Below, piece by piece: positions 2,465-32,136 of a stretch of DNA of 64,000 nucleotides. Origin of the DNA: Rhizobium leguminosarum (GTDB lineage Bacteria > Pseudomonadota > Alphaproteobacteria > Rhizobiales > Rhizobiaceae). Numbering within the stretch: position 1 is the first letter of the stretch; the number at the start of each line of letters is the position of its first letter. The notes under the pieces were generated by a model. It was not told the origin of the DNA, ran no database searches, and saw only the letters and a program-made list of their open reading frames with translations. A program made the translations under genes and the position numbers. The DNA is taken from the NCBI RefSeq assembly GCF_001652265.1, contig NZ_LWBS01000044.1, positions 80,710 through 144,709 of the forward strand, read 5' to 3'.

Positions 2465-2552
2465 GAAATCTCTGGCTTGCTGCGGGTCGTCAACATCGCC
2501 CGCAGAACCACCATGGCAGACTGGCAACGAAAATTCTATTGCACTTCCGAAG

Positions 2553-2590
2553 AAAATGTAGAACGTTATATGGAGAACGTTCTACATTTT
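2553..2590. promoter_or_regulatory. Perfect 15-bp inverted repeat with two AACGTT cores
   Basis: AAAATGTAGAACGTT and its exact reverse complement are separated by the 8 bp ATATGGAG. The repeat ends four bases before the GGGAGGA ribosome-binding site of the rhamnosidase gene. Each arm holds an AACGTT core, and the right one is a perfect AGAACGTTCT palindrome. It may be a double LacI-type operator, or a leader hairpin if transcription starts upstream. Confidence 0.65.
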
Positions 2591-2604
2591 GTCGGGAGGA
2601 CTTG

Positions 2605-4926: not shown

Positions 4927-4963
4927 GGAGCATACACGTCACACCGTTCAGAGGAGGAACGTC

Positions 4964-13889: not shown

Positions 13890-13937
13890 CCGGGCGCTCA
13901 TTCTTTCGCAAACGCAGCTACAAAAAGGGGAACCGCC

Positions 13938-14987: not shown

Positions 14988-15056
14988 CCTCGTCGGGCGG
15001 GCGGGTGTCCCCCTGGCCTCGTTCGCCCCTTTCTCTACCTCAGGAAGGCATGAGCG

Positions 15057-16313: not shown

Positions 16314-17134
16314 TGACGAATTTCCTTTCTTTCCCGCGGCTGTTTTCGATCCTCTTGTGGCTGGCTGGCGGCCTGGTGATCCTTTTCCTGATCGCGCCGA
16401 TCGTGGCGATCGTGCCGCTCTCCTTCAATGCCGAGCCGTTCTTCACCTATCCGATGCCCGGCCTGTCGCTCCGCTGGTATCGTGAATTCTTCGATTCCAA
16501 CGTCTGGCAGCTGGCGCTGAAGAACAGCATCATCGTCGCCGTCTTTGCCACGCTTCTGTCGACCTTTCTCGGCACGCTTGCCGCGATCGGCCTCAGCCGG
16601 CCCTCCTGCCCAGCGCGGGCAACGCTGACCGCCATTCTGATTTCGCCGATGATCGTGCCGGTCATCGTTTCGGCAGTCGGCATCTATTATGCCTTTGCCG
16701 CCGTCGGGCTGCTCAACAGCCTGACCGGGCTGGTGCTGGCGCATACGGTGATCGGCGCCCCTTTCGTGGTGATCACCGTGACCGCCACGCTCGCAAGCTT
16801 CGATCATAATCTGATGCGGGCGGCATCCAGTCTCGGCGCAGCCCCGGTCGAAGCGACATTGCGCATCATGCTGCCGGTCATCGCGCCGGGGGTGGCGTCC
16901 GGCGCGCTCTTTGCCTTCGTGACATCATTCGACGAAGTGGTGATCGCACTCTTCATCGCCGGCTCCGAGGAGCGCACGCTGCCGCGCCAGATGTGGAGCG
17001 GCGTGCGCGAAACGCTGAGCCCGACGATCGCCGCCGTCGCCACGCTTCTCATCCTGTTTTCGACGCTGTTCCTCGCCACGATCCAATGGCTGCAGCGCCG
17101 CGCCGAACGCCAGAAGATTGCGCATAGGGATTAA
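16313..17134 (+). CDS. Polyamine-type ABC permease (PotC-like)
   Basis: Second membrane subunit, 273 aa, six membrane segments beginning at residue 8 (PRLFSILLWLAGGLVILFLI) and an EAA loop LMRAASSLGAAPVEATLRIML. The reading frame stays open far upstream inside the previous gene, but the ATG at 16313, which overlaps the preceding stop (TGATG), gives the family's normal length. Confidence 0.9.
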   Translation: MTNFLSFPRLFSILLWLAGGLVILFLIAPIVAIVPLSFNAEPFFTYPMPGLSLRWYREFFDSNVWQLALKNSIIVAVFATLLSTFLGTLAAIGLSRPSCPARATLTAILISPMIVPVIVSAVGIYYAFAAVGLLNSLTGLVLAHTVIGAPFVVITVTATLASFDHNLMRAASSLGAAPVEATLRIMLPVIAPGVASGALFAFVTSFDEVVIALFIAGSEERTLPRQMWSGVRETLSPTIAAVATLLILFSTLFLATIQWLQRRAERQKIAHRD

Positions 17135-17149
17135 TTCAGGGGGTTGAGC

Positions 17150-17506
17150 ATGCAGATCGAACGCTATGAAACCGGAAAACGGATGAGCCAGGGCGTGACC
17201 GATGGCGGCTTCGTGTTCCTCGCAGGCCAGGTCGCAATCGACGCGCCGGGCGCGCCCGTGCGCGAACAGACGACCAACATCCTGGCGCGGATCACCCGGC
17301 TTCTGGAAGGCACGGGCAGCAATCCGACACGGATCCTCAGTGCGACGATCTGGCTTGCCGATATCTCCAGCTTCGAAGAAATGAATACCGTGTGGGACGC
17401 CTGGGTGCCCGCGGGCCATGCGCCGGCGCGCGCCACGGTCGAAACAAGGCTCGCCGCACCGGAATTCGCCGTTGAGATCGGCATCATCGCGGCGATCGGG
17501 AGCTGA
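17150..17506 (+). CDS. RidA/YjgF-family enamine/imine deaminase
   Basis: RidA proteins hydrolyse reactive enamines and imines released by PLP enzymes or amine oxidases to keto acids and ammonia. The 118-aa protein has the compact family fold (GFVFLAGQVAIDA near the N-terminus; RATVETRLAAPEFAVEIGIIA near the C-terminus). The conserved arginine of the RVEV-type motif corresponds to RATVET. The ATG at 17150 is chosen because AGGGGG lies six bases upstream; a TTG at 17144 is in frame. It closes the ABC operon, and its likely job is to clear the imine made by the divergent DadA-like oxidase. Confidence 0.85.
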   Translation: MQIERYETGKRMSQGVTDGGFVFLAGQVAIDAPGAPVREQTTNILARITRLLEGTGSNPTRILSATIWLADISSFEEMNTVWDAWVPAGHAPARATVETRLAAPEFAVEIGIIAAIGS

Positions 17507-17563: not shown

Positions 17564-19018
17564 TTAGGCGATACCGCCCAGGCACACATATTTAAGCTCG
17601 GTATATTCGTCTAATCCGTGCCTCGACCCTTCGCGACCGAGACCCGACATCTTCACGCCGCCGAACGGAGCCTCGGCCGTCGAGACAAGACCGGTATTGA
17701 CGCCGACCATCCCATATTCGAGCGCTTCGGCCACGCGAAATACCCGCGACAGATCGCGAGCGTAAAAATACGAAGCAAGCCCGAACTCGGTGTCGTTTGC
17801 CTGTTCGATGACGTCCTCTTCGTCGCGGAAGCGAAAAAGCGGTGCAAGCGGCCCGAAGGTTTCCTCGCGGGCGACCTGCATGCCGGCAGCGACATCGCGC
17901 AGGATCGTCGGCTCGAAGAAATGGCCGCCAAGCGCGTGGCGCTTGCCGCCTAAGACGATCCCAGCACCCTTTGAAACGGCATCGCTGATATGGCTTTCGA
18001 CCTTGGCGACGGCATTGTCGTCGATCAGCGGGCCAAGCACGACGTCACGGTCGAGACCGTTGCCAACCTTCAAGGCCGAAACGGCCACGGCGAGCTTGGC
18101 GGCAAATGCCTCATAGACGCCGTCCTGGACATAAAGCCGGTTGGCGCAAACGCAGGTCTGGCCATTGTTGCGGAACTTGGCGATGAGCGCGCCTTCGACC
18201 GCAGCGTCGAGATCGGCGTCGTCGAACACGATGAAGGGTGCATTGCCGCCAAGCTCGAGGCCGAGCTTTTTGATCGTCGGCGCGCATTGCCGGTAAAGCA
18301 GCTCGCCCGTCCGGGTGGAGCCGGTGAAGGTCAGGACCCGAACGTCACGGCTTGCCGTCAGCGCCCCGCCAATTGCCGCTGCGTCACCCGTGACGATGTT
18401 GAGAAGCCCCGGCGGCAGGCCGGCACGCTCACCGAGAACGGCGATCGCGATGGCGGAGAATGGCGTCTGTAGCGCCGGCTTCAGAACGACGGCACAGCCG
18501 GCGGCAAGCGCGGGGCCAATCTTGCGGGTGATCATCGCGTTCGGAAAATTCCAGGGCGTGATGGCGGCCACGACGCCCGCCGGCTGGCGCAGGACGAGGA
18601 TCCGCTTGTCGGCCTGATGTCCCGATACGACCTCGCCGTTGATGCGTCTCGCCTCTTCGGCGAACCATTCGATGAAACTCGCACCATAGGTGATCTCCCC
18701 CTTAGCCTCGGCCAGGGGTTTTCCCTGCTCGAGCGTCAGGATCATCGCCAGATCGTCGCGGTTTTCGATCATCAGGCGGTGCCATGCCTTGAGAACGGCG
18801 GCGCGCTCGCCGGCGGTCTTCTTTGCCCAAAGCTTCTGGGCAATCACCGCGGCGCGGATGGCATCTTCCGTTTCCGCCGCACCGAGGTCAGGCACCACCC
18901 CCAGCGGCTCGCCGGTGGCCGGATTGCGGACGGTCGCCGCCTTGCGGCCTTCCGCTTCGATCCAGCGATCGGCGATGGGGCATGCCTGACGGAACAGCGA
19001 GGGATCATTGAGCTTCAT
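17564..19018 (-). CDS. NAD(P)-dependent succinate-semialdehyde dehydrogenase-like aldehyde dehydrogenase
   Basis: Oxidises an aldehyde, probably succinic semialdehyde, to the acid. The 484-aa protein matches GabD in length and motifs: TPWNFPNAMITRKIGPALAAG, GSTRTGELLYRQ, catalytic glutamate in LELGGNAPFIVFDDADLD, catalytic cysteine in NNGQTCVCANRLYV, and the C-terminal GVKMSGLGREGSRHGLDEY. The ATG at 19018 is chosen over an in-frame start 33 bp upstream because family similarity begins there. It is the last gene of the eleven-gene run starting at 28181. In trigonelline breakdown the final step is succinate-semialdehyde dehydrogenase (TgnE), which fits this position. Confidence 0.85.
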   Translation of the reverse strand: MKLNDPSLFRQACPIADRWIEAEGRKAATVRNPATGEPLGVVPDLGAAETEDAIRAAVIAQKLWAKKTAGERAAVLKAWHRLMIENRDDLAMILTLEQGKPLAEAKGEITYGASFIEWFAEEARRINGEVVSGHQADKRILVLRQPAGVVAAITPWNFPNAMITRKIGPALAAGCAVVLKPALQTPFSAIAIAVLGERAGLPPGLLNIVTGDAAAIGGALTASRDVRVLTFTGSTRTGELLYRQCAPTIKKLGLELGGNAPFIVFDDADLDAAVEGALIAKFRNNGQTCVCANRLYVQDGVYEAFAAKLAVAVSALKVGNGLDRDVVLGPLIDDNAVAKVESHISDAVSKGAGIVLGGKRHALGGHFFEPTILRDVAAGMQVAREETFGPLAPLFRFRDEEDVIEQANDTEFGLASYFYARDLSRVFRVAEALEYGMVGVNTGLVSTAEAPFGGVKMSGLGREGSRHGLDEYTELKYVCLGGIA

Positions 19019-19028
19019 ATGACAACTT

Positions 19029-20108
19029 TCAACAGAACACGTGAGCGGCACCGGGATCGAAATTCAGATGGACTATATCGCCACGGCTGAGCCCCGCGAT
19101 AGCCTCATGACCAAACGGAAGGCGAACCGCCAGCGCCTCACCCGTCGCCGTCTCGGTCGAGACGTGAATATTGTTGCCGAGGAAGGTAATGTCGCTGACG
19201 GTTGCGGCAAGACCCGCTCCCGCCACCTGGTTTCGCGACAACCGAATGCGCTCAGGCCTCAGCATCAGGGCTGCCCTCGTCCCGGAGGTTCCTTTTCCAT
19301 GCACCGGAATATGATTGAAGACGCTCTCGCCGCCAAGCGAAATGGTGGCCTGCCCATCGGAGGATGACAGCAGGTCGCATGAAATGAAGTCGCTGTCGCC
19401 GATGAATTCGGCAACGAAGCGGGTCCGTGGATTGGCGTAAAGTTCCGGCCCCGTGCCGATCTGATCGATGACGCCCTTGGAAAAGACGGCGATCCGGTCG
19501 GAAAGCCGCAACGCCTCCTCCTGGTCATGCGTGACATAGAGGATCGTCACTTCGGTCTGCTGATGGATCCGGCGTATCTCATGCTGGATTTCCTCGCGCA
19601 GCTTCTTGTCGAGCGCCGACAGCGGCTCGTCCATCAGAAGCACCGGCGGATCATAGGCAAGGGCTCTGGCAAGGGCGACTCGCTGCTGCTGGCCGCCGGA
19701 CATCTGCGCAGGCTTGCGATCCTCGAAGCCTTCGAGCCGGACGAGGCGCAGCATCTCCTTCACCTTGCTGTCGACCTCGGCCTTGGACTTGCGCCGGACC
19801 TTCAGCGGGAAAGCGATATTTTCGCCCACCGTCAGATGCGGAAACAGGGTGTAGCGCTGGAACACCATGCCGATGTTGCGCTTGTGCGACGGCGTGGCGA
19901 GCAGGGTCTTGCCCTCCAGCGTGATGTCGCCTTTCGTCGGAGTTTCAAACCCGGCCAGGATATAGAGGGTCGTGCTTTTCCCGGATCCGGACGGTCCGAG
20001 AAAGGTCAAGAACTCCCCGCGCCGGACGTCGAGATTGACATCGTGGACGGCGACGACAGGGCCGTATTCCTTGCGTATTCCCCGGATCTGAAGGAATGGT
20101 TCTCTCAT
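19029..20108 (-). CDS. Polyamine-type ABC transporter ATP-binding protein
   Basis: ATPase of 359 aa with Walker A (GPSGSGKST), Q-loop (MVFQRYTLFPHLT), signature ([15 protein letters not shown]), Walker B (VLLMDEPLSALD) and H-loop (YVTHDQEEAL), then a TOBE-type regulatory domain. Its ATG overlaps the stop of the upstream permease by 4 bp. It energises the importer that presumably brings in the substrate of the catabolic genes in the same run. Confidence 0.9.
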   Translation of the reverse strand: MREPFLQIRGIRKEYGPVVAVHDVNLDVRRGEFLTFLGPSGSGKSTTLYILAGFETPTKGDITLEGKTLLATPSHKRNIGMVFQRYTLFPHLTVGENIAFPLKVRRKSKAEVDSKVKEMLRLVRLEGFEDRKPAQMSGGQQQRVALARALAYDPPVLLMDEPLSALDKKLREEIQHEIRRIHQQTEVTILYVTHDQEEALRLSDRIAVFSKGVIDQIGTGPELYANPRTRFVAEFIGDSDFISCDLLSSSDGQATISLGGESVFNHIPVHGKGTSGTRAALMLRPERIRLSRNQVAGAGLAATVSDITFLGNNIHVSTETATGEALAVRLPFGHEAIAGLSRGDIVHLNFDPGAAHVFC

Positions 20109-20905
20109 TGTTTCAGTACCTTACGCACGACGGCAACCAGCGCCATCAAGAGGATCGTCAAAAGGATGAGAAGGGTCGACGCCGCAGCGACAACGGGCGT
20201 CAGATCTTGCCGCAGCGTCGCCCATACCTTCACCGGCAGCGTCTGCAGGGTCGGGCTGGACATGAAGATCGCCACCACCACCTCGTCCCAGGATGTCAGG
20301 AACGAGAAGACGGCCGCCGAAAACAGCCCATGGCTGATCGCCGGCAGGGTGACCCTGATCTTTGCTTCCAGAGGCGAGGCACCGCACAGAACGGCCGCAT
20401 CCTCGATCGACTTGTCGAAGCCCTCCAGCGCACTTGAGATGGAGAGGATCGAGAAGGGCAGCGCGAGAACGAGGTGCGAAATGACGAAGCCTACCAACGT
20501 GCCGCCAAGACCGATCCTCAGGAAGAAGGCATAAAGGGCGACCGCAAGGACCACGACGGGGAGGATCATCGGCGTCAGGAACAGCGCTTTCAGCGCATCG
20601 CGGAACAGGAACGAACCGCGCACCAGCCCGAAGGAGGTCACGAGCCCGAGCAGCACCGACAGGATCGTCACGATGACCGCGATCTTGAAGCTCGTCCAGG
20701 CCGATTCCAGCCAGCGCGGATCGGCAAAGAGGTCGCTGTACCACTGAAGCGTCCAGCCGGGCGGCGGAAAGATCAGCCATTGCGAGGAGCCGAAGGAGAG
20801 CGCCGCGATAAAGACGATCGGCAGCAGCAGAAAGGCCGCAGTCAGAAGCGTGATCGCCAGCAGGATGTATTTCCACCAGCCGATCCGGTCGAAGTTGAGC
20901 AACAT
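20105..20905 (-). CDS. ABC transporter permease (PotC-like)
   Basis: Inner-membrane subunit, 266 aa, with six predicted segments and the EAA loop IEDAAVLCGASPLEAKIRVTLP. The ATG at 20905 is one base downstream of the preceding permease stop; a longer frame would start inside that gene. It is part of the importer at 19029-22903. Confidence 0.9.
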   Translation of the reverse strand: MLLNFDRIGWWKYILLAITLLTAAFLLLPIVFIAALSFGSSQWLIFPPPGWTLQWYSDLFADPRWLESAWTSFKIAVIVTILSVLLGLVTSFGLVRGSFLFRDALKALFLTPMILPVVVLAVALYAFFLRIGLGGTLVGFVISHLVLALPFSILSISSALEGFDKSIEDAAVLCGASPLEAKIRVTLPAISHGLFSAAVFSFLTSWDEVVVAIFMSSPTLQTLPVKVWATLRQDLTPVVAAASTLLILLTILLMALVAVVRKVLKQ

Positions 20906-20906
20906 G

Positions 20907-21779
20907 TCAACGCCCTCCCGGGTTCTGGTTGCCGAGGAAGCGCAGCTGCACGGCATAAAGCAACAGGGTCACCACGAGGAGAACCAGCGCTGCGGCACCT
21001 CCCATCCCCCAGTTGACCAGCGACTGCACGAATTGAGCGATCAGCTCTGCGAGCATCATGTTCGCGGTGCCGCCGAGAAGCGACGGCGTGACGAAATAGC
21101 CAAGCGACATGACGAAGACCATGAGGGCACCGGCCGCCATGCCCGGCATGGCCAAGGGCAGCAGAACGCGGGTCAGGCACTGCCACCGGTTGGCGCCGCA
21201 AAGTGCTGCTGCCTGCAGGGTCGACGGGTCGATCTTCTTGATCACGCCGTAGAGCGGCAGGATGATGAAGGGTAGCATGATATAGGTCATGCCGATCGTC
21301 ACCCCGGTCAGGTTGTTGACCAGTGCTAAAGGCTTGTCGATCAGCCCCATTCCGATCAGCATCTTGTTGATCAGCCCCGTCCGCTGCAAAAGCACCATCC
21401 AGGCATAGGTGCGCGCAAGCAGGTTGGTCCACATCGACAGGAGCAGGATCGCAAAGATCACCGACGTCAGGCGCCCGGGCATGATTGCCAGCGCCCAGGC
21501 AACGGGAAATCCGATCAGCAGCGAAATCACCGTGACGAGACCCGAGACGATGAAGGTATTGGCGAAGATCTTGAGATAGGTCGCGGACCCGATCAGCTGC
21601 GCATAGTTTCCAAAGCCCGGAACCGGTTCCAGCACGCTGCGCAACAAGAGGACCGCTACCGGCGCGATGAAAAAGATCGTCACGAAGGCGAGAGCCGGAA
21701 GGACCCCGCCGAACCCTGTTGCCCTGCGCACTTTTGGCAGGGGCACAATTGCCCCGGAGGCATCGCTGTATGTCGACAT
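20907..21779 (-). CDS. ABC transporter permease (PotB-like)
   Basis: Inner-membrane subunit, 290 aa, first segment at about residues 23-45 (FGGVLPALAFVTIFFIAPVAV), EAA-type loop STLQAAALCGANRWQCLTRVLLPLAMP. Unlike the PotB-like protein at 15057-16313 it lacks the long periplasmic insertion. MSTYSDASG at 21779 is taken as the start; five more codons are open upstream. Confidence 0.88.
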   Translation of the reverse strand: MSTYSDASGAIVPLPKVRRATGFGGVLPALAFVTIFFIAPVAVLLLRSVLEPVPGFGNYAQLIGSATYLKIFANTFIVSGLVTVISLLIGFPVAWALAIMPGRLTSVIFAILLLSMWTNLLARTYAWMVLLQRTGLINKMLIGMGLIDKPLALVNNLTGVTIGMTYIMLPFIILPLYGVIKKIDPSTLQAAALCGANRWQCLTRVLLPLAMPGMAAGALMVFVMSLGYFVTPSLLGGTANMMLAELIAQFVQSLVNWGMGGAAALVLLVVTLLLYAVQLRFLGNQNPGGR

Positions 21780-21848
21780 GACAGTCCTTCCCACCCGTCA
21801 ATTTCCGCAGGCGCCGAGGTCCAACAAACGGGCACCGACGCTGCGGGA

Positions 21849-21872
21849 GGCACGGCGAACATTCGCCGTGCC
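21849..21872 (-). other. Intra-operon hairpin after the binding-protein gene
   Basis: GGCACGGCGAA-CA-TTCGCCGTGCC is a perfect 11-bp inverted repeat in the 113-bp gap between the binding-protein stop and the first permease. It lacks a T-run and probably stabilises the binding-protein message. Confidence 0.65.
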
Positions 21873-21892
21873 CGTTCATCTCAAGTTTCAGG

Positions 21893-22903
21893 CTATTTCG
21901 CCTGCCAGGCGTACCACTTCTCGCCGATGGCATCGCGATTATCAGCCCAGTAGGTCATGTCGGCATTCACCTGGCTGGCCGTCTGCTGATCCGGCAGGGT
22001 CTTGGCCGTCTCCGGATCCATCAGCTTGGCCGAGTCAACGTTGATTGGTGCATATCCGGTGGCTTTTGCAAGAGCGGCCTGTGGTTCGGCCGCGGTTGCC
22101 ATTGCAATGAACTTCATTGCGGCTTCCGCGTTCGGCGAACCCTTCGGCACGACGAGCGAATCCGCAGCGGTGATGTTCTGTTCCCATGAGGTCTCGGTCT
22201 TGATACCGCTCGCCGCAAGCGCGGTCATGCGGCCGTTCCAGATGCTGCCGAAGGGAGCCTCGGCGGATGCGAGAAGCTGCTGCGACTGTGCGCCGCCCGA
22301 CCACCAGACGATATCCGATTTGATCGTATCGAGCTTCTTGAAGGCGCGGTCGAGATCAAGCGGATAGAGCTTGTCGGCAGCCACGCCGTCGGCAAGCAGC
22401 GCCGCTTCGATCACGCCGGGAGCCGACCACTTGTAGAATGTGCGCTTTCCCGGAAACTTAGTCGTGTCGAACAGGTCCGCCCAGGTCTTCGGGCAGGCGC
22501 TGACGGCATCGGCATTGCAGCCGATCACGAAGGAGTAATAGAAACTGCCGACCGAATAGTCGGTCACGAAGCGCGGATCGAGCTTGGATTTGTCGATGAC
22601 GGAGAAATCGAGCTTCTCGAGCTGGCCATTCTTGCCGGCCTGGGCGGCATAGTCGCCTTCGACGTCGACAACGTCCCAGGTAACCTGGCCAGCCTCGACC
22701 ATCGCCTTGAGCTTGCCGTAGTCCGTCGGCCCGTCCTGTACGACGGTAATGCCGGTCTTCTCCGTGAACGGGCTTGCCCATGCAGCCTTCTGCGCGTCCT
22801 GGGTCGTTCCTCCCCAGCTTGAGAAGACCATGTTGTCGGCGTGTGCCGGTACGGACACAGCCACGAATGCGGCAACTGCCGCGAAAGCAAATGTTGTTTT
22901 CAT
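21893..22903 (-). CDS. PotD-like ABC transporter substrate-binding protein
   Basis: Periplasmic receptor, 336 aa, with a clear signal peptide (MKTTFAFAAVAAFVAVSVPAH, then ADNMVF) and PotD-like motifs (MVFSSWGGTTQDAQKAAW, VEAGQVTWDVVDVEGDYA, FGSIWNGRMTALA). Because it lies inside the catabolic run it probably binds that pathway's growth substrate; a cationic N-methyl heterocycle such as trigonelline or another betaine would suit a PotD-like pocket. That ligand is inference. Confidence 0.88.
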   Translation of the reverse strand: MKTTFAFAAVAAFVAVSVPAHADNMVFSSWGGTTQDAQKAAWASPFTEKTGITVVQDGPTDYGKLKAMVEAGQVTWDVVDVEGDYAAQAGKNGQLEKLDFSVIDKSKLDPRFVTDYSVGSFYYSFVIGCNADAVSACPKTWADLFDTTKFPGKRTFYKWSAPGVIEAALLADGVAADKLYPLDLDRAFKKLDTIKSDIVWWSGGAQSQQLLASAEAPFGSIWNGRMTALAASGIKTETSWEQNITAADSLVVPKGSPNAEAAMKFIAMATAAEPQAALAKATGYAPINVDSAKLMDPETAKTLPDQQTASQVNADMTYWADNRDAIGEKWYAWQAK

Positions 22904-22951
22904 GTTCCCTTATCCTTGTTCTGGTTTGTCCTACGGGTATGCCTTATGCCG

Positions 22952-23275
22952 TCAGTGCGCCTCGCTCCTGGGAGAAAAGTTAGCTGGCTTCATAACCTTG
23001 TTTTCCGCTACTTCGATCAGATCGCGAATCTTGGGCAGGAAGGCCTGCCACCGGGGATCGGCCAGAAGTCTCTGGCGCCTCGCCTCTCGGTCGTCCAGGC
23101 TCGCAAAGGCCCAGATGTGAACGATCTCGTTGATCGTCCCGATCTCCGAGAAAAAATAGCCGACGAGCGTGCCGAGATGGCTCTTCTGGATCTCGATCCC
23201 CTCTTCCTCGACGACCTTGAGATATTGCGGGATGGTGCCGTTCTTCAGCCGATAGGTGCGGATTTCGTAAAACAT
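22952..23275 (-). CDS. NIPSNAP-family protein
   Basis: A 107-aa ferredoxin-like alpha-beta barrel protein: MFYEIRTYRLKNGTIPQYLK at the start and HIWAFASLDDREARRQRLLAD in the middle are typical NIPSNAP features. NIPSNAP proteins belong to the dimeric alpha/beta barrel group, whose members often bind small ligands or catalyse isomerisation or oxygenation, but this family's reaction is mostly unknown. It follows the aldehyde dehydrogenase by 5 bp and so is likely part of the same catabolic pathway. Confidence 0.85.
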   Translation of the reverse strand: MFYEIRTYRLKNGTIPQYLKVVEEEGIEIQKSHLGTLVGYFFSEIGTINEIVHIWAFASLDDREARRQRLLADPRWQAFLPKIRDLIEVAENKVMKPANFSPRSEAH

Positions 23276-23280
23276 CGGCG

Positions 23281-24744
23281 CTACCTCATCACGAAGGGAT
23301 CGGGGATCGGATCGTCCGATGTCCTGAGCCAGATCGTCTTGGTACGGGTATAGTCGAGCGCCGCGGCCATGCCGCCTTCCCTGCCATGGCCCGACAGGCC
23401 GAAACCGCCGAACGGCGCGATCGGCGAGACCACGCGGTAGGTGTTGACCCAGACGATCCCGGCGCGGAGCCCCTTCATCAGCCGGTGCGCCCGGGTCAGG
23501 TTCTGGGTGAAGACGCCGGAAGCCAGGCCATAACGGGTATCGTTGGCAAGCCGCAGCGCCTCGGCCTCCGTCTCGAACGACACGACGGACAAGACCGGCC
23601 CGAAGAATTCCTCGATCAGCGACGGCGAGGCGACATCGTCGCAGTCGAGAATCGTCGGCGGGAAATAATAGCCTTCGCCGTCGATCTTGCTGCCACCCGT
23701 GACGAGACGGGCGCCGCTTTCGATCGACTTGGCGACGAGGGCGCCGATATTGTCCTGCTGGCGCTTGGTGGCAAGCGGGCCGACTTCGGTCGCCATATCG
23801 AGCGGCGCACCGATCCGGATCGCCTCCGCCTTATCCCGTAGCAGGGCGACGAATTTATCCTTGACGCTGCGTTCGACGATCAGCCGTGACCCGGCAACAC
23901 AGCTCTGCCCTGTCGCGGCGAAGATGCCCGCGACCTGGGCGTTGGCCGCGCTCTCGAGGTCTGCATCGGCAAAGACGATGAACGGCGACTTGCCGCCAAG
24001 TTCAAGCGAGGTGGAGGCGAGGTTTTCGGCCGAGTTGCGTACGACGTGCCGGGCGGTTTCAGGGCCGCCGGTGAAGGCGACATGCGCGACCTTCGGGTGC
24101 CGGCCGAGGGCGGCGCCGCAGGAGGCGCCAAAACCGGTGATGATGTTGACGACGCCGGCGGGAAAGCCTGCCTCGTGCACGAGCCGTGCAAATTCGAGAA
24201 GCGGCGCCGGCCCGTCTTCAGAGGCCTTGACCACCATCGTGCAGCCGGCCGCGAGCGCCGGGCCGATCTTCACCGCGGACAGGAAGAGCTGGCTGTTCCA
24301 CGGCACGACCATCGCAACGACGCCGATCGGCTCGCGGCGAAGCCAGACATCCATGTCGGGCTTGTCGATCGGCAGGTAGGCGCCTTCGATCTTGTCGGCG
24401 ATGCCGGCATAGTAGCGATAGTATTCGGCGACATAAGCGATCTGCGCCGATGTTTCGCGGATGATCTTGCCGGTGTCGCGCGTCTCCAGTTCAGCCAGCA
24501 CCTGCGCGTTGGCAGCAACCAGGTCGGCCAGCTTGTAAAGCAGCTTGCCGCGTTGGGTGGCCGTCATTTTCGGCCAGGCGCCGTCGTAAAGCGCCCTGTC
24601 GGCCGCGTTGACAGCCCGATCGACATCGCCCTCGCGCGCTTCGGGCATCTCAGCCCAGACCGCGCCGGAGGCGGGATCAATGCTCGGATAGCTGGCCTCG
24701 CCATCTGAGAATTCGCCGTCGATATAGTGCTGGAAACGCCGCAT
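23281..24744 (-). CDS. Aldehyde dehydrogenase (TgnC-like role proposed)
   Basis: NAD(P)-dependent aldehyde oxidation, 487 aa. Motifs seen: MVVPWNSQLFLSAVKIGPALAAG, FTGGPETARHVV, catalytic glutamate in LELGGKSPFIVFADADLE, catalytic cysteine in ATGQSCVAGSRLIVE, and C-terminal FGGFGLSGHGREGG. It lies next to the luciferase-like monooxygenase with 4 bp between them. In the trigonelline pathway an aldehyde-dehydrogenase-family enzyme (TgnC) oxidises the ring-opened hydroxybutyrolactone to a methylformamido-methylene succinate; gene order supports that role here but does not prove it. Confidence 0.88.
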   Translation of the reverse strand: MRRFQHYIDGEFSDGEASYPSIDPASGAVWAEMPEAREGDVDRAVNAADRALYDGAWPKMTATQRGKLLYKLADLVAANAQVLAELETRDTGKIIRETSAQIAYVAEYYRYYAGIADKIEGAYLPIDKPDMDVWLRREPIGVVAMVVPWNSQLFLSAVKIGPALAAGCTMVVKASEDGPAPLLEFARLVHEAGFPAGVVNIITGFGASCGAALGRHPKVAHVAFTGGPETARHVVRNSAENLASTSLELGGKSPFIVFADADLESAANAQVAGIFAATGQSCVAGSRLIVERSVKDKFVALLRDKAEAIRIGAPLDMATEVGPLATKRQQDNIGALVAKSIESGARLVTGGSKIDGEGYYFPPTILDCDDVASPSLIEEFFGPVLSVVSFETEAEALRLANDTRYGLASGVFTQNLTRAHRLMKGLRAGIVWVNTYRVVSPIAPFGGFGLSGHGREGGMAAALDYTRTKTIWLRTSDDPIPDPFVMR

Positions 24745-24748
24745 GGTC

Positions 24749-25789
24749 TCACTCCTGAAATGCTGGCATGACCTCGGTGATGAAGCGCCCGAGCGACGCC
24801 TTCTTGCGCTCGAAGCTCATGCCGGTGTCGATCCAGAAAGAATATTCGTCATAGCCCAGCGCTTCATACGCCTTGAGCCGGGCGATGACGGTCTCAGCGT
24901 CGCCAACGACATTGTTGGTGCGCATGACCTGGTCCGACAGCATCGCGTTTGCTCTGACCTGTTCGTCCGGGATCCGTTCGATCAGACCCTGGGTAACCGG
25001 CTTCTCATTCTTGAACCAGGCGAAGAAATAATTGTAGTAGACGCTGAGTTCATGGGCGGCCTGGGCGACATCGTCCTCTGACGAGCCGACATAGGTATGG
25101 CGCAGCAGCATGATCTTGGGGCGCTCGATATCGGGATTCTTGGCGCAGGCATCGTTGAAGCGCTCCATCAACGACTGAACCTCGTCGTCGCCCTGCCAGA
25201 GCGGCGTCACCTGAACGTTGCAGCCGTTGGCGACGGCAAATTCGTGCGAGTTCGGATCGCGCGCCGCCACCCATATGGGCGGGTTCGGCTGCTGCAGCGG
25301 TTTCGGCGCCGACGTGGTCGACGGAAACTTGAAGAATTCGCCGTCATGCGCGTAATCGCCGGCCCATATCCCCTTGACCGCCGGGATGAGCTCACGCATG
25401 CGCTGGCCAGCACCCCAGGCATCGAGACCGGGCAGCAGACGCTCGTATTCGAAGGAATAGGCCCCGCGCGCGATACCGATATCGAGCCTCCCATCGCAGA
25501 TGATGTCGGCCATGGCGGCCTCGCCGGCAAGCTTGATCGGATGCCAGAAGGGGGCAATCACCGTTCCAGTTCCAAGCCGCGCCCGCGATGTGCGGCGCGC
25601 CAGATCGGCAATGGTCACGAACGGATTGGGCGCAATGGTGAAATCCATGCCATGGTGCTCGCCCGTCCAGATCGCGTGCATGCCGCCCTTGTCGGCGATC
25701 TCGCAGAGCGCGACGAATTCCTCGTAGAGGCTCTTATGGCTTTGGCTGGCGTCGAGCCGTTCCATATGGACGAAGAGGGAGAACTTCAT
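24749..25789 (-). CDS. Luciferase-like flavin-dependent monooxygenase (large component)
   Basis: A 346-aa bacterial-luciferase-fold oxygenase that would use reduced flavin supplied by the adjacent reductase. Typical features: ADKGGMHAIWTGEHHGMDFT, RTSRARLGTGTVIAPFWHPI, DGRLDIGIARGAYSFEYERL and NPPIWVAARDPNSHEFA. It overlaps the flavin reductase stop by 4 bp, so the two should be made in a fixed ratio as a two-component monooxygenase. TgnA, the ring-cleaving oxygenase for trigonelline, is of this class and is likewise coupled to a flavin reductase. The substrate is inferred only from neighbours. Confidence 0.88.
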   Translation of the reverse strand: MKFSLFVHMERLDASQSHKSLYEEFVALCEIADKGGMHAIWTGEHHGMDFTIAPNPFVTIADLARRTSRARLGTGTVIAPFWHPIKLAGEAAMADIICDGRLDIGIARGAYSFEYERLLPGLDAWGAGQRMRELIPAVKGIWAGDYAHDGEFFKFPSTTSAPKPLQQPNPPIWVAARDPNSHEFAVANGCNVQVTPLWQGDDEVQSLMERFNDACAKNPDIERPKIMLLRHTYVGSSEDDVAQAAHELSVYYNYFFAWFKNEKPVTQGLIERIPDEQVRANAMLSDQVMRTNNVVGDAETVIARLKAYEALGYDEYSFWIDTGMSFERKKASLGRFITEVMPAFQE

Positions 25790-26721
25790 GCTTTTGCGTC
25801 CTTGGCTGGAATTGGGTGAACAGTGCCGCCGGTCTCGTCGCCGAAATAGACGCCGAAATTGCCGATCGAGCTTTCCATCGCGAAACGGTTGACGATATCG
25901 GCAGTCGAACTGGTCTTGAACTTTGCCGCAACCAATGCGTCAGGCTTCAGGAACCTGCCGCCGGCAGGCTCGCCCTCTCCGGCAACGGCGTGATAGACGA
26001 TGTGCTGCTTGCCGTCGCTCTTGCCCTCATAAACCGAATAGAGAAAGCCGATGCTGACTTTCAACCCGGTGAGCGTTTCCAGGTATTTTTGCAGCGTCTC
26101 GGTCGGGTTGCCGTCATGGGCGTCGACGCTCGGCAGGGAGAGCACATCCTCGCCGAGCAGCAGAACTTCCCCGCGGCGTTCGACAACGGCTGCAAGTTCC
26201 ATATTGCCTTCGCTTGCCGCGGACACTGCCTTGCTTGCGAGCGTCGGCGTGAAATAGCCGCCACGCGCATAGCCGAGACCGTTGCGGCCGCTATTGTCGA
26301 AAGCTTCGATGCGTCCCATCAAGATGACGTGGTCGCCAGCCTCGATGACCTCTTCCATGGCACATTCGAACCAGGCCGCAACGTTCGAGAATATCGGGCA
26401 GCCTGCCGATCCCCTCGCCCATTCGACCGCCGCAAACCTGTCCTCGACCGGGCGAGCAAAAGTGTTCGACACGTCTTTCTGCATTTCCGAAAGCACGTTG
26501 ATCGCAAAATGCTGCGCTCCGGTCATGGTGGCGAAATTGCGCGACGTCCTGGCAAGGCAGACGAGGAGAAGCGGTGGATTGAGCGAGACCGAGGTGAAGG
26601 AGTTCGCTGTGAAGCCGATCGGATGTCCTTCCCCGTCGCAGGCGGTGACGACAGTCACCCCGGTCGGAAAAGCCCCGAATGCATCTCGCAGTGCTCTTGG
26701 GTCGACAGTCTGGATTGTCAT
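25786..26721 (-). CDS. Flavin reductase with extra C-terminal Nudix-like region (small component)
   Basis: Reduces FMN or FAD with NAD(P)H for the neighbouring monooxygenase. Residues 1-165 are a flavin reductase domain (FPTGVTVVTACDGEGHPIGF, SFTSVSLNPPLLLVCLARTS, FAINVLSEMQ). The remaining 145 residues are unusual: MELAAVVERRGEVLLLGEDV, then GNPTETLQKYLETLTGLKVS and IVYHAVAGEGEPAGGRFLKP. This order of strand, helix and strand resembles a Nudix fold, but the REXXEE catalytic signature is lost, so the region may bind a nucleotide or effector without hydrolysing it. Gene overlaps on both sides (4 bp) show tight coupling. The Nudix reading is by eye. Confidence 0.82.
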   Translation of the reverse strand: MTIQTVDPRALRDAFGAFPTGVTVVTACDGEGHPIGFTANSFTSVSLNPPLLLVCLARTSRNFATMTGAQHFAINVLSEMQKDVSNTFARPVEDRFAAVEWARGSAGCPIFSNVAAWFECAMEEVIEAGDHVILMGRIEAFDNSGRNGLGYARGGYFTPTLASKAVSAASEGNMELAAVVERRGEVLLLGEDVLSLPSVDAHDGNPTETLQKYLETLTGLKVSIGFLYSVYEGKSDGKQHIVYHAVAGEGEPAGGRFLKPDALVAAKFKTSSTADIVNRFAMESSIGNFGVYFGDETGGTVHPIPAKDAKA

Positions 26722-27563
26722 CGTTCATCCTCCCCGAACGATAGCCACTCAGCGAGCAGCGAATTGACGATATCAGGTGCGGTCAGGTTCACCATATGAC
26801 GATGCCCTTCGACGATGCGGGCGTAGCCCCGCGGCGCAAGCTCTGCCATTTGCGTCGCCATCAAGGGCGTCGAGTTCGGATCATCGGACCCCGTCAGAAA
26901 CAGCGCCGGACCAGCCACGTCTTTCCAGCCGTCAGCATAGGTCTCGTCTCCTCCAGCGAAGGCGGCGTAAGCGACGGCATATCCCTGGGGATCGACGAGG
27001 TTCAGCCATTTTCGCGTCAATTCACGCGCAGTGACGCTGTCCGCATCTTCACCGAACCAGCGGGCCAGCGGACCTTCCTTGTCGACGCCCGATACCGGAA
27101 TGGCCGCGGCCCGCGAAAGCACGGCAGCCTTTGCTTCGGGGTCACGCCTGTAGACGCCGTTGAGGTAAGCCACGCGGCTGATCCGCTCGCCAAAGGTCGC
27201 GGCCACCCCTCCTGAAACCAGTGCGCCCATCGAGTGCCCGGCAACATTTGCGGTGTCGATTGCCATCTCGTCGAGAAAGCGTCCGAACCAGGCGACGAAC
27301 TCCTCGAGCCGACTGCCCGCCGGCAGCATTGCGCTCTCCCCATGTCCCGGCATATCGACAGCGATGACGCGATGGCCTGCAGACAGAAATGCGATCTGCG
27401 GAGCCCAGGCCTCGAGCCGCATGCCGACGCCATGAATGAGAACCAGCGGCTCGCCGCTGCCGGCCTCATGATAGGCCGTTCCGCTTGCCGTCTTCTTTCG
27501 GGGCAAGGCACCGGCGGCGTTTGTTGCTGCAGCGGTGCGTGTCGTCGATCCGGCTGTCAGCAT
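26718..27563 (-). CDS. Alpha/beta hydrolase (TgnD-like role proposed)
   Basis: A 281-aa soluble hydrolase. The oxyanion region LVLIHGVGMRLEAW, the DMPGHGES motif and the nucleophile elbow VAGHSMGALVS (Ser111) are intact, with a C-terminal candidate histidine in VEGHRHMVNL. The first 25 residues are a low-complexity Ala/Thr stretch that may be over-extended, since no internal start is clearly better. In trigonelline degradation an alpha/beta hydrolase (TgnD) splits methylformamido-methylene succinate into succinic semialdehyde, methylamine, formate and CO2; this gene fills that slot by position and family. Confidence 0.85.
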   Translation of the reverse strand: MLTAGSTTRTAAATNAAGALPRKKTASGTAYHEAGSGEPLVLIHGVGMRLEAWAPQIAFLSAGHRVIAVDMPGHGESAMLPAGSRLEEFVAWFGRFLDEMAIDTANVAGHSMGALVSGGVAATFGERISRVAYLNGVYRRDPEAKAAVLSRAAAIPVSGVDKEGPLARWFGEDADSVTARELTRKWLNLVDPQGYAVAYAAFAGGDETYADGWKDVAGPALFLTGSDDPNSTPLMATQMAELAPRGYARIVEGHRHMVNLTAPDIVNSLLAEWLSFGEDER

Positions 27564-27578
27564 CTCAGAGCCGCTCCC

Positions 27579-28181
27579 TCAAACGCCCGCAGGATTGGCA
27601 ACGTCCTGCCCCAGGTCTTTCAGATCCTGGTAGCGGTCGCCGATACGGTGATGCGGGCGCCCGCCTATCGAAGCACCGAGGGCAACGACGATCTCGTCGG
27701 CAGCAGGCGCGTCGGAGATCGACGTCTGGATGGTCAGATAGTGCGAACGGCGGCCCTCATCGTTCTTGTCCATCAGCGGGATCATGATCGGCGCATTGGC
27801 CGGACCGCGTGTGTTGCAGAAGGCGAGATAGGACTTGGCGCCGACGGCCTGGCGATAAAAATTGCCGAAACGCAGCGTGTGGATAAGCGCGGACCCGTGT
27901 TCGATCTCGCCGTCCAGGCCGACGACAGCGGACTTTCCATATCCCTCGACAGCCTCGCCGGACCCGACCGCATCAATGATCATCTTGGTCAGCAACTCGC
28001 CGAGCACTGGAGCGCCTGCGTGAATTTCGGGCTTGAGGTCGTCGACGAAGCCGCGACCGGCCCAGGGATTCTTCACGACCGCGAAGGCGGTAAACAGCTT
28101 CAGCGGAACCGGCGCGGCCTTGCCGCCTTCGATCAGCGTCGTTTCGATCTGCAGTCCCGTCTTGCGAATTTGAATGGCCAT
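27579..28181 (-). CDS. DUF1185 'amino acid synthesis' family protein
   Basis: A 200-aa protein of the PF06684 type: FTAFAVVKNPWAGRGFVDDL, GEAVEGYGKSAVVGLDGEIEHGSALIHTL and ADEIVVALGASIGGRPHHRIGDR are family hallmarks. The family name is historical and no reaction is established. It is the first gene of the eleven-gene run, 25 bp downstream of a perfect 20-bp palindrome. The ATG at 28181 follows GAGGTGC and is preferred over a start four codons upstream. Its position implies an early step, such as ring opening or uptake-linked modification. Confidence 0.82.
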   Translation of the reverse strand: MAIQIRKTGLQIETTLIEGGKAAPVPLKLFTAFAVVKNPWAGRGFVDDLKPEIHAGAPVLGELLTKMIIDAVGSGEAVEGYGKSAVVGLDGEIEHGSALIHTLRFGNFYRQAVGAKSYLAFCNTRGPANAPIMIPLMDKNDEGRRSHYLTIQTSISDAPAADEIVVALGASIGGRPHHRIGDRYQDLKDLGQDVANPAGV

Positions 28182-28205
28182 CGAGCACCTCATTTCTCAA
28201 TATCG

Positions 28206-28225
28206 TATTATGGTATACCATAATA
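28206..28225. promoter_or_regulatory. FadR/GntR-type operator 1 (perfect 20-bp palindrome)
   Basis: TATTATGGTATACCATAATA is a perfect palindrome 25 bp before the DUF1185 start, containing the core TGGTATACCA. Related cores occur at 28441-28453 and before the GntR gene at 29356-29370. Confidence 0.7.
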
Positions 28226-28596
28226 TATTGGTGTCAAGTTGGTTGCTGCGAGAACGCAGTTCAGGCCGAGGCGGAGTTTTCAATTTGGCGCGCGCGCACT
28301 CTCGACCCACCGGGCAGCGCTTTCTTCCCGTCAGCGCGTTGTCAGCTGACAAACGACATGGCGGCGCCCCGCGGGGGCCGGCCGAGTCCAGAAGTCATAC
28401 GGTCACCCCAGTTCATGATGCCGCCTTATATATTACTTAATATGGCATACCATCACATTGGACAAAGTTGGGTGTCAAGCGCGGAGTATGGATTCCGCTG
28501 AATTGCGCGGAACATTATCGCGAATGGAGTGATATCGACAGCTGAGATGAGCGCTTTGCCAGGGCCTGCGGGGAAGCGGCAGGGGCCTGTTCGTGC
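28226..28596. other. Intergenic region with no gene seen
   Basis: About 370 bp between the catabolic operon promoter and the end of the GntR gene. Apart from the operator-like site at 28441-28453, nothing convincing was found. The open frame crossing it on the plus strand has no ribosome-binding site and no recognisable family. Confidence 0.5.
28441..28453. promoter_or_regulatory. FadR/GntR-type operator 2
   Basis: TATGGCATACCAT matches operator 1 at 12 of 13 positions and keeps the TGG-N3-ACCA arms. It lies about 260 bp upstream of the operon and could support DNA looping with operator 1. Confidence 0.55.
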
Positions 28597-29289
28597 CTAT
28601 CCGGCAGGCTTCTTCGCCGACAGCACCGCTTCAGCGATAGCGCTTGCGGCGGCGACGTGATCCATCGCGGCCCGGTAAGCGCCCTCGCCGTCACCGCGGC
28701 GGATGGCGTCGACGATCTTCGACATCTGCAGCGGTCCTTCGATGCCGCGTCTCTCAGTCTTGATCGTCATCGAGCGCAGATGGTTGATGCGCACGGTGAG
28801 GAGATTGACGACACCCCAGGCAACATTCCTGTCAACCATCGTGAACAGCGTGTGATAGAAGGAAGAGGTGTTCGTCAGCACAGCCGACATGTCATTGTCA
28901 CGGTAGCTGTTGCGGATCCCGGCCAGAGATTCCTCCAGCGCGGCGACGATCTCCGGGCTGCGGCGCTCCGCGCATAGCCGCGCCGCCATGCCTTCCAGCG
29001 CGCCGCGGATCTCATAGATTTGCTTGGCTTCGTCGATGTCGAGCTGCGCGACGATCGGCCCCTTGTTCGGCAGATTGGCGACAAGCCCTTCCGATTCCAA
29101 ATGCCTCAGAACCTCGCGCACGACTGTTCGGCTGACGCCGAGCTGGGCGCAGAGGTCACGCTCGACAAGGCGATCTCCGGGACGAAAATATCCGTTGACG
29201 ATGGCTTCGCGGACCTTGTCGAGCGCCAATTCCCGCAAGGTCTTTGCAGGACGCTCGACTCGAATTGCGTCCTTCAGAGCACCGCTCAT
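28597..29289 (-). CDS. GntR-family transcriptional regulator, FadR subfamily (FCD domain)
   Basis: A 230-aa regulator with an N-terminal winged helix (VREAIVNGYFRPGDRLVERD, GVSRTVVREVLRHLESEGLV) and an all-helical FCD ligand domain (IYEIRGALEGMAARLCAERR; HTLFTMVDRNVAW). It lies on the same strand as, and upstream of, the catabolic run, separated by 415 bp. Three sites with consensus TGGYRTACCA flank it and the operon, arguing for autoregulation and control of the catabolic genes. FCD regulators usually bind carboxylate effectors, probably the substrate or an intermediate. Confidence 0.9.
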   Translation of the reverse strand: MSGALKDAIRVERPAKTLRELALDKVREAIVNGYFRPGDRLVERDLCAQLGVSRTVVREVLRHLESEGLVANLPNKGPIVAQLDIDEAKQIYEIRGALEGMAARLCAERRSPEIVAALEESLAGIRNSYRDNDMSAVLTNTSSFYHTLFTMVDRNVAWGVVNLLTVRINHLRSMTIKTERRGIEGPLQMSKIVDAIRRGDGEGAYRAAMDHVAAASAIAEAVLSAKKPAG

Positions 29290-29355: not shown

Positions 29356-29370
29356 TTATGGCGTACCAGA
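29356..29370. promoter_or_regulatory. FadR/GntR-type operator 3, before the regulator's own gene
   Basis: TTATGGCGTACCAGA carries the TGG-N3-ACCA core about 70 bp upstream of the GntR start. It is less symmetric than operator 1, as expected for a weaker autoregulatory site. Confidence 0.55.
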
Positions 29371-29488
29371 TACTGTAGCTGGCGGCGGCCGGCAATTCAA
29401 CAAGCGCTGTGCCGACCTATGGCGCCGCCCGTCTTGTCAGACGCGCAAAGGACGCTGTAGCTTTGATCTGCTGCCTAAACGTCGGGAG

Positions 29489-30850
29489 CTAGCCTCTAGA
29501 AACAATCTCCTCGACCACGACTTTGGCCTGCACCCGGATATCCGGTACGGCCGTGATCTCCCAGAATTGTCCTGCCGTCAGGGCGCCGACCGCAAATAGT
29601 CGGGCCGGCGAGATACGGGACGGGGCTATCACCTCGGAAGCGGCATCCACCTGGATCCCGAGGCCAAGAGGATCGGGGACAATCAACTCAAAGCGGCTCA
29701 TTTCCTTCAAAAGCGGTGAATGACTGATCCCGGCCCGCTCCATTCCCGTGCAGTTGACGAGCCAGTCCGCCCTGATCTCGGCGATCTCGCGCGTCGCTCT
29801 GACCCTGTAGCTGGCAACGAGCCGGCCCTCCTCGGCCCCGACCGATTTCAGGAAGCCCGCGTGGAAACGAACGGTTCCGTCTAAGACCAGCTTCTCAAAC
29901 CTGTCGAACACGTCAGGCGCGACCCGGTGACGATGGATGTTCCACCAGGGAAGCGCATGCCTGAGGAAGCGTGCCCGCTCCTTGCTCGAAAGCCGTTGCC
30001 AGAGAGCCTGCGTTGCAGGCCTCAGACCGTCCATCACGGCTCGCCAGTCGGCAACCGTCCTACTCTTTCCCCGCAGGGTCTTCAATATGCCGCTGATCGT
30101 ATCCGGAAGCGTCTCGACGTCGATCGGCAGAGGCGCCGGCGGCTTCCACGCGTGCCCGAGCGGCGCAAGCCCACGCCGCGAAAGCACATCGATCTTGCCG
30201 GCGTGGCCATGGGCGCGAAGCGCCAGCACCTGATCGATCATCGTCAGGCCGGATCCGAGGATACACACCGCATCGGATGGTGCGACGCGCCTCAGCCACG
30301 AAAGCCGCCACGGGTTCTCGATGATGCGCGATCGCAGCAATGGCGGGACCTCGTCCGGAGCGACCGGCAGGGTCGCGTTCCCGACGCCGAGGCAAAGCAC
30401 CACGTTCTTTCCGGCAATCTCGTCACCATTGCCGAGATGGAAGGCCAGCGTGCTGCTGTAACGTTCCACGCATCCCGCCGCCTTGGCCTTGATGAAATCG
30501 ACCCGGCAACGGCCGTCCCGCTTTCGAAGCAGCCGAGCAAGCGTATCGCGGACATAAAGACCGTAATCGCTGCGCGAAGCGAAATCGCCGGCCTTCAACG
30601 GGCGTCCATGGCTTTTCAGCCAGTCGACAAAGTCGTCGGGTTGATGCGGCAGCAGGCTCATGCGGCCGGCGGGAACATTGAGGCGATGGAGATAGAGTTC
30701 CGTCCGGTAGGCCGTCCCGCGGCCGAAGCCAGGATCGTCGCCGACGACGGCGATCTTCGCCGAAGCGGGAAGCTGCTCGATGAGATTGCAGGTAACCGCG
30801 ATCGCTGAAAAACCGGAACCGACCACGATAACATCATATGTCAAATGCAT
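29489..30850 (-). CDS. FAD/NAD(P)-binding protein (PF13454-type flavoprotein)
   Basis: A 453-aa flavoprotein with an N-terminal dinucleotide motif (YDVIVVGSGFSAIAVTCNLIE), a second one (DAVCILGSGLTMIDQVLAL) and FGRGTAYRTELYLHRLNVPAGRM typical of the FAD/NAD(P)-binding group annotated as HydR/YdhS-like. No catalytic reaction can be assigned. It is divergent from tauABC across a 217-bp promoter carrying a weak copy of the sulfur-island GTCTA element, so it may act in organosulfur use, for example as an oxidoreductase on imported sulfonates. That is inference from position. Confidence 0.75.
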   Translation of the reverse strand: MHLTYDVIVVGSGFSAIAVTCNLIEQLPASAKIAVVGDDPGFGRGTAYRTELYLHRLNVPAGRMSLLPHQPDDFVDWLKSHGRPLKAGDFASRSDYGLYVRDTLARLLRKRDGRCRVDFIKAKAAGCVERYSSTLAFHLGNGDEIAGKNVVLCLGVGNATLPVAPDEVPPLLRSRIIENPWRLSWLRRVAPSDAVCILGSGLTMIDQVLALRAHGHAGKIDVLSRRGLAPLGHAWKPPAPLPIDVETLPDTISGILKTLRGKSRTVADWRAVMDGLRPATQALWQRLSSKERARFLRHALPWWNIHRHRVAPDVFDRFEKLVLDGTVRFHAGFLKSVGAEEGRLVASYRVRATREIAEIRADWLVNCTGMERAGISHSPLLKEMSRFELIVPDPLGLGIQVDAASEVIAPSRISPARLFAVGALTAGQFWEITAVPDIRVQAKVVVEEIVSRG

Positions 30851-32081: not shown

Positions 32082-32088
32082 TCCTCCC

Positions 32089-32119
32089 TGACGCCGGCGC
32101 AGTCGTTGCGCCGGCGTCA
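32089..32119 (+). other. Intra-operon hairpin between tauA and tauB
   Basis: TGACGCCGGCGCA-GTCGT-TGCGCCGGCGTCA is a perfect 13-bp stem with a 5-base loop and no T-run, placed directly after the binding-protein gene. It probably stabilises tauA mRNA and sets the tauA:tauB ratio. Confidence 0.7.
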
Positions 32120-32136
32120 AACCTGCGAGCGGCAAC

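Follow-up and report, generated by a model that had tools for sequence, protein, structure and literature searches.

Gene content of the tgn locus

Trigonelline is released by legumes, and the stretch of DNA analyzed here (the window: 64,000 nucleotides from Rhizobium leguminosarum, contig NZ_LWBS01000044.1, C44:80710-144709) carries an operon, tgn, at 17564-29289 on the minus strand, which this legume nodulator very likely uses to import and degrade that compound. The genome comprises 8.18 Mb in 472 contigs (5.4% contamination) and also carries nodA adjoining nodB, nodC and a nodD; the nearest matches of the window lie in the Rhizobium leguminosarum group. Labels beginning with L and G are ours, for loci and genomes.

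All named genes are open reading frames at the places given below. Profile searches with the window proteins gave matches to Aldedh (twice), NIPSNAP, Bac_luciferase, Flavin_Reduct, alpha/beta hydrolase, PF06684 (DUF1185), GntR plus FCD, and SBP_bac_8, and the ATPase of the ATP-binding cassette (ABC) importer, its two permeases and the succinate-semialdehyde dehydrogenase (SSADH) were also matched to families. An earlier inspection of this DNA (the original prediction) had listed these genes on one strand, and frames, places and families agree with that list.

29356-29371, strand not applicable: operator-like palindrome with 3 mismatches, upstream of the regulator gene
28597-29289, minus: GntR/FCD (FadR-type) regulator, proposed TgnR, with 80% identity to its counterpart in the Atu4243 locus and 45% to that of Acinetobacter
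28440-28455, strand not applicable: distal operator-like palindrome with 2-3 mismatches, between regulator and DUF1185
28210-28237, minus: sigma-70-like promoter TTGACA-16-TACCAT, overlapping the operator; a consensus match only
28208-28223, strand not applicable: perfect palindrome TTATGGTATACCATAA, proposed (predicted) TgnR operator
27579-28181, minus: DUF1185 (PF06684), TgnF homolog
26718-27563, minus: alpha/beta hydrolase, TgnD homolog
25786-26721, minus: flavin reductase, TgnA homolog; residues from about 165 to 311 form an additional C-terminal domain
24749-25789, minus: luciferase-like monooxygenase (LLM), homolog of TgnB (oxygenase component)
23281-24744, minus: aldehyde dehydrogenase (ALDH), TgnC homolog
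22952-23275, minus: NIPSNAP-family protein
21893-22903, minus: substrate-binding protein (SBP), ortholog of Atu4243, which binds gamma-aminobutyric acid (GABA)
20907-21779, minus: ABC permease 1
20105-20905, minus: ABC permease 2
19029-20108, minus: ABC ATPase
17564-19018, minus: SSADH, TgnE homolog

Going by how a close relative is annotated, the starts of DUF1185 (27579-28181), SSADH (17564-19018) and the permeases (20907-21779 and 20105-20905) may be slightly different. Several neighboring genes overlap by a few bases, which fits one transcription unit. With the reductase as query, 54 loci from Rhizobium, Allorhizobium or other Rhizobiales were surveyed, and DUF1185, hydrolase, reductase, LLM, ALDH, SBP, both permeases and ATPase occurred together in every one of them, so the gene order is not a product of chance. 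NIPSNAP was present in 53 of these loci, GntR in 51 and a separate SSADH in 30, some loci ending at a contig end or at the 10 kb flank.

Relationship to the trigonelline enzymes of Acinetobacter

Alignment with an A. baumannii locus (L056) revealed six Tgn homologs in one order, with identities of 72% for DUF1185, 52% for the hydrolase, 42% for the reductase, 69% for the LLM, 70% for the ALDH, 57% for SSADH and 45% for the regulator. As in the window, DUF1185, hydrolase, reductase, LLM and ALDH follow one another in the Acinetobacter cluster, SSADH lies further down, and a GntR/FCD regulator and the palindrome are present; the cluster differs in its divergent regulator and in the CMD-family gene that follows SSADH. 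Relatives of the Acinetobacter LLM at 93-94% identity carry the NCBI name 'flavin-dependent trigonelline monooxygenase oxygenase component'. In a midpoint-rooted maximum-likelihood tree of 39 LLMs, the window LLM and the rows so named form one clade of 31 rows (support 100/98). The LLMs of L063, L162 and L200 adjoin this clade, and four rows at about 50% fall outside it, as does a paralog (42%) encoded on an Agrobacterium pAt plasmid. Because of the LLM identity to the named group, the shared clade and the collinear gene order, the trigonelline assignment holds, and the operon is in all likelihood a complete trigonelline gene set, both a member and a variant of the known system.

The original prediction had reached the same substrate, and the comparison gave homologs of TgnA (the reductase), TgnC and TgnD at 42, 70 and 52%. 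Its labels TgnA and TgnB were apparently swapped, TgnB being, as we take it, the oxygenase component. It had also named DUF1185, NIPSNAP and the ABC importer as differences from the Acinetobacter cluster. The latter two are indeed differences, as neither was found in the 25 kb Acinetobacter locus, but DUF1185 is not, since it is a TgnF homolog with a counterpart there. The A. baylyi DUF1185 homolog was named TgnF and stimulates TgnE, an effect not seen by the same authors for their own homolog (PMC7913881; here and below, sources with PMC numbers are cited for the passages concerned).

Some points speak against the assignment: the identity of the reductase is just 42%, the comparison cluster is that of A. 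baumannii rather than of A. baylyi ADP1, and in the Acinetobacter locus the ABC importer is replaced by a PF02133 (cytosine/purine-type) permease. The C-terminal domain of the reductase (25786-26229, minus strand) is without a Pfam match, and Pseudomonas-like reductases align with the window reductase only over about the first 134 residues. An AlphaFold model of this domain has good confidence (predicted local distance difference test, pLDDT, 85), and at a guess the order of modeled strands and helices looks Nudix-like.

A conserved palindrome upstream of the operon

When perfect inverted repeats were sought upstream of DUF1185 and the regulator in 20 loci, one repeat recurred, with the core ATGGTATACCAT. 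The window holds five strand-counted matches at up to three mismatches against 0.06 expected, and two sigma-70-like promoters were found in this region against 0.4 expected. Among the 82 loci with both LLM and DUF1185, many of which are close relatives, the palindrome TTATGGYATACCATAA lies upstream of DUF1185 with at most two mismatches in 75; the remainder have three (L062, L202), four (L063), five (L201, L205) or seven (L160, L161). Upstream of ALDH, ATPase, permease and SBP, no palindrome within two mismatches was found in any locus tested, and 1640 shuffles yielded four matches at three mismatches and none lower. In Acinetobacter, a one-mismatch copy of the palindrome precedes tgnF, and a second such copy precedes the SSADH gene. 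We propose that the perfect copy at 28208-28223 is the operator of TgnR, which would be the protein that binds it.

The palindrome is not confined to the operon. The exact 16-mer occurs at eight places in seven of 199 Rhizobiaceae genomes, and all seven are among the 29 that hold the LLM (the other 22 are without the exact 16-mer). With one mismatch allowed, 120 Rhizobium genomes gave 71 places in 64 genomes, and a reversed control pattern matched in five genomes. Sorted by content within 1.5 kb, these 71 places are 64 at the DUF1185 gene of the operon (one per genome), three at nodD (L195, L279, L281), three at a second TgnA-like gene (L225, L273, L282) and one other (L248). The sorting took in 76 loci, five of which came from the exact 16-mer search, lie outside the genus Rhizobium and are all operons. 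The remaining place, at position 1501 of L248 (G734:C38:49318), is a one-mismatch site near which neither a gene of the operon nor a nodD was found.

One nodD site belongs to the window's own genome, where it lies on a 3.5 kb contig of an assembly with 5.4% contamination; the product of this nodD is 76% identical to S. meliloti NodD2. The nodD promoter site has no mismatch in L195 and none or one in all six of L206-L211, which are R. leguminosarum-group plasmids in which the site, by reading, overlaps a TTGACT...CATAAT promoter. In WSM2304 (L212) it has two mismatches, and the nodD adjoining nodABC of WSM1325 (L213) has no site within three. Since L209 and L206 are the same DNA as L279 and L281, the nodD cases are not all independent. 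The nodD promoter region was found in 39 plasmid records, in six of which the site was read.

In a genome assigned to R. mongolense, the second TgnA-like gene is flanked by nodD2 on one side and nodL-noeA on the other; in one assigned to R. tibeticum and in G730 it adjoins nodL-noeA, each time with a site within one mismatch. In S. meliloti 2011, two TgnA-like copies flank nodD2 (L242 1467-2156 and 5770-6453), and each has a site with at most one mismatch. The promoter and leader start of this gene resemble those of tgnF, so it may be what remains of an operon duplication. An operon with the site is present in 41 of the 52 Rhizobium genomes with NodA, compared with 23 of the 68 without (odds ratio 7.3, Fisher p 1e-6), a test that ignores relatedness and counts no operons with a more divergent site.

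Of the competing explanations, the one that survives best concerns this palindrome, which could be the site of another regulator or mainly a promoter element, with the nodD copies carried along by rearrangement and functionless. We regard this as unlikely, although several observations lend it weight. The conserved stretch also spans the promoter (TTGACA...CATAAT), so part of the conservation perhaps belongs to the promoter. Some nodD copies have insertion sequences or a group II intron around them. Moreover, site and regulator do not coincide fully: of the 76 loci with a GntR gene in the fetched stretch, 72 have the site and four do not, and of the six without one, L007, L013 and L032 have it. 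In these three the regulator may be broken or lie elsewhere. We had considered the rule that a locus with no GntR neighbor has no palindrome, and dropped it when a recount found it true in just three of the six. On the other hand, those three (L160, L161 and L205) lack both, nearly all GntR loci have the site, and its dyad symmetry is for the most part conserved across Rhizobiaceae, Acinetobacter, Pantoea and Pseudomonas-like genomes, where copies also lie upstream of the SSADH gene of Acinetobacter and of an SBP unit. We retain the palindrome as a candidate TgnR operator.

The importer and its GABA-binding relatives

The best solved match of the window SBP is 4eq7/4euo (599 bits), at 84% identity over 313 residues to Atu4243; the 4EUO entry is Atu4243, a specific GABA-binding protein (PMC6829864). 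The Atu4243 chain is encoded by G204 (100% over 313 residues) on a contig of 2,075,577 bases, and its gene sits in the same operon, with identities to the window of 80% for the regulator, 89% for DUF1185, 88% for the LLM and 82% for SSADH. This locus (L153) differs from the window in that regulator and DUF1185 are separated by an SBP_bac_3-type ABC set together with an iron alcohol dehydrogenase (2411-6058), and a second operator-like site, at 2368, precedes these inserted genes. Atu4243 is described as 'totally repressed' by the Atu4232 product, with mechanisms of derepression so far unknown according to the same source (PMC3907764). By gene count back from Atu4243, assuming consecutive locus tags and the frames we chose, Atu4232 is the GntR regulator of the operon. 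If Atu4232 is TgnR, then trigonelline or a metabolite of it would be a natural candidate for derepression.

The GABA contacts of Pf622, a P. fluorescens GABA binder used in iGABASnFR, are W9, T13, F100, F102, W202, R205, D228 and Y264, residue 102 being Y in iGABASnFR2 (PMC12999171). The pocket of the window SBP is alike, with W30, T34, F121, Y123, W222, R225, D248 and Y284 kept. Across 104 distinct SBPs, which take in the window's, Atu4243 and engineered Pf622, seven of the eight residues are invariant, and the eighth (the Y123 position) is Y in 100 and F in four. These are not mere family residues, because the second SBP of the window, 38% identical to that of the operon, differs by alignment reading at T34, F121, Y123 and D248. 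Over 275 residues, engineered Pf622 itself (9d57, iGABASnFR2) shares about 95% identity with the SBPs of two of the genomes sampled below, which are encoded 5.5 and 6.4 kb from a TgnB-like LLM. That LLM is only about 50% identical to the window's and has its place outside the trigonelline clade, and the genes there stand in another order.

Across genomes, the SBP accompanies the oxygenase. At E-value limits of 1e-100 or 1e-60 for the LLM and 1e-80 for the SBP, which leave weaker relatives uncounted, and in three samples that have some genomes in common, every genome with the SBP also held the LLM. Among 199 Rhizobiaceae genomes the LLM was present in 29 and the SBP in 26, the pairs lying on one contig less than 3 kb apart and G039, G135 and G164 having the LLM without the SBP. 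Among 39 genomes of the genus of G190, both were found in the same 16, each pair on one contig, and among 398 genomes of the phylum the LLM was found in 20 and the SBP in nine, on one contig and within 7.5 kb. The SBP of G206 (L158 7260-8271) is read in two frames, a possible frameshift.

This linkage bears on the next explanation, in which importer and SSADH form a GABA module with GABA as the main substrate, and the oxygenase genes belong to a neighboring pathway that shares succinate semialdehyde. We consider such an arrangement improbable, even though the pocket supports it and argues against trigonelline as the transport ligand: the SBP is close to Atu4243, keeps all eight Pf622 contact residues, and has a relative that is reportedly highly specific for GABA, namely Atu4243 itself (PMC3907764). 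Furthermore PA0222, 33% identical and encoded in a locus proposed for another use, binds GABA and (nearly) keeps the contact residues of Atu4243 (PMC6829864), so the pocket does mark GABA binders. However, the importer lies inside the tgn operon, and the strict linkage of its SBP to the oxygenase makes a GABA-only operon less likely. Likewise, among the 41 annotated features around the operon of R. leguminosarum 31B (L060), the one close relative covered, there is no aminotransferase, and hence no GABA transaminase, to go with the importer. Import of trigonelline remains our preferred reading.

The operon on S. meliloti pSymA

The whole operon is collinear on pSymA of S. meliloti 2011 at 62-87% identity, NIPSNAP and ABC importer included, and the reductase encoded there is identical over 311 residues to the solved structure 3rh7. 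On the annotated pSymA of another S. meliloti strain, the operon lies between nodD2-nodL-noeA and nifT-nifB-nifA, fixAB. We take the trigonelline region of pSymA to be that known as trc. With 10 mM trigonelline as the only source of carbon, S. meliloti wild type grows and a pSymA-less strain fails to grow (PMC4207669). SMa0799-803 are listed as potABCD2, for putrescine uptake, among the transport genes essential for symbiosis, and SMa0816-0822 as fixABCX (PMC7268258). As there is one SBP-and-permease set between noeA and nifT, SMa0799-803 are very likely the importer of the pSymA operon.

The requirement of pSymA for growth on trigonelline also speaks against another N-methylpyridinium or N-heterocyclic acid, such as homarine, as the substrate, a proposal to which we give little credence. 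The position of the carboxyl group is not fixed by sequence, and a paralogous cluster at 42% identity beside a glycine-betaine-type importer suggests more than one use of the enzyme family. Nevertheless, clade and gene order match the Acinetobacter enzymes named for trigonelline, and activity of TgnAB on homarine has been judged unlikely for steric reasons (PMC8269262). The literature searched yielded no gene set for a homarine pathway or for trc genetics. The paralogous cluster (L061 6466-12255, and L152 on a pAt-type plasmid; LLM 42%) contains, in L061, reductase, ALDH, hydrolase, CMD, NIPSNAP and DUF1185, adjoins a ProXVW-type importer, and perhaps serves another N-methylated heterocycle or betaine.

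An importer of polyamines, as the annotation and the potABCD2 name would have it (the original prediction called the importer polyamine-type), is highly improbable and was rejected, for although the best named families of the importer parts are polyamine and aminoethylphosphonate ABC proteins, and SMa0799-803 are assigned to putrescine, the window SBP scores 63.3 bits against the PotD model, far below its curated cut-off of 582, and 58-109 bits against solved spermidine/putrescine-binding proteins, compared with 599 bits for Atu4243.

A possible link between trigonelline catabolism and nodulation control

Taken with the preceding comparisons, it is tempting to speculate that TgnR is a trigonelline sensor that joins diet and symbiosis, relieving the repression of importer and ring-opening enzymes and also, within the R. 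leguminosarum group, of a separate nodD copy with this operator in its promoter. The known GABA binders Atu4243 and Pf622 (the latter as part of the brain sensor iGABASnFR) would serve to import trigonelline or a close analogue and bind GABA as well. We offer this joint reading tentatively, as a possibility that falls somewhat short of being probable. We predict that trigonelline or a metabolite acts as inducer as well as being the compound transported, and that the regulon takes in one nodD copy.

Apart from this speculation, we consider it likely that the operon is repressed and inducible by its substrate, trigonelline (N-methylnicotinate), with TgnR as the proposed repressor that would sit on TTATGGYATACCATAA over the promoter until released by trigonelline or a metabolite. 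The ABC importer would take up trigonelline, and TgnB together with the reductase TgnA would open the pyridinium ring between C5 and C6. The dehydrogenase TgnC would then oxidize the ring-opened product, the hydrolase TgnD would split the TgnC product into methylamine, formate, CO2 and succinate semialdehyde, and TgnE, aided by TgnF (DUF1185), would yield succinate. These reaction steps, from ring opening to succinate, are reportedly those set out by Perchat in 2018.

If correct, the joint reading would have consequences beyond catabolism. Activation of S. meliloti NodD2 by trigonelline has been reported (PMC11771551, citing Phillips 1992), and an operator common to a catabolic operon and a nodD copy would provide a concrete second route from trigonelline to nodulation control. 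Since the predicted switch also precedes a nodulation-regulator gene, plant food and symbiosis signaling may be linked. A testable answer to the question of Atu4243 derepression would also follow, should TgnR act as proposed. In addition, the putrescine label of a symbiosis-essential transporter (SMa0799-803) is called into question, and potABCD2 would be relabeled as a trigonelline importer. The GABA sensor would possibly have a second ligand, in which case iGABASnFR would respond to trigonelline. In the literature searched, trigonelline was not found paired with Atu4243, SMa0799, iGABASnFR or TgnR, although earlier work may say part of this. What deserves follow-up is how the importer relates to the GABA binder Atu4243, together with the operator that several loci share and the nodD copy placed behind it.

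Neighboring genes

A second PotD-type ABC set lies on the plus strand at 12807-17506, with its SBP at 13938-14987, two permeases, an ATPase upstream and a RidA-family gene at 17144-17506; the set is convergent with the SSADH gene of the operon. On the other side, beyond a FAD-NAD(P)-binding protein (29489-30850), an NMT1/TauA-type ABC importer occupies 31068-33776 on the plus strand. The same NMT1/TauA importer and FAD-NAD(P)-binding neighbors adjoin the operon in R. leguminosarum 31B.

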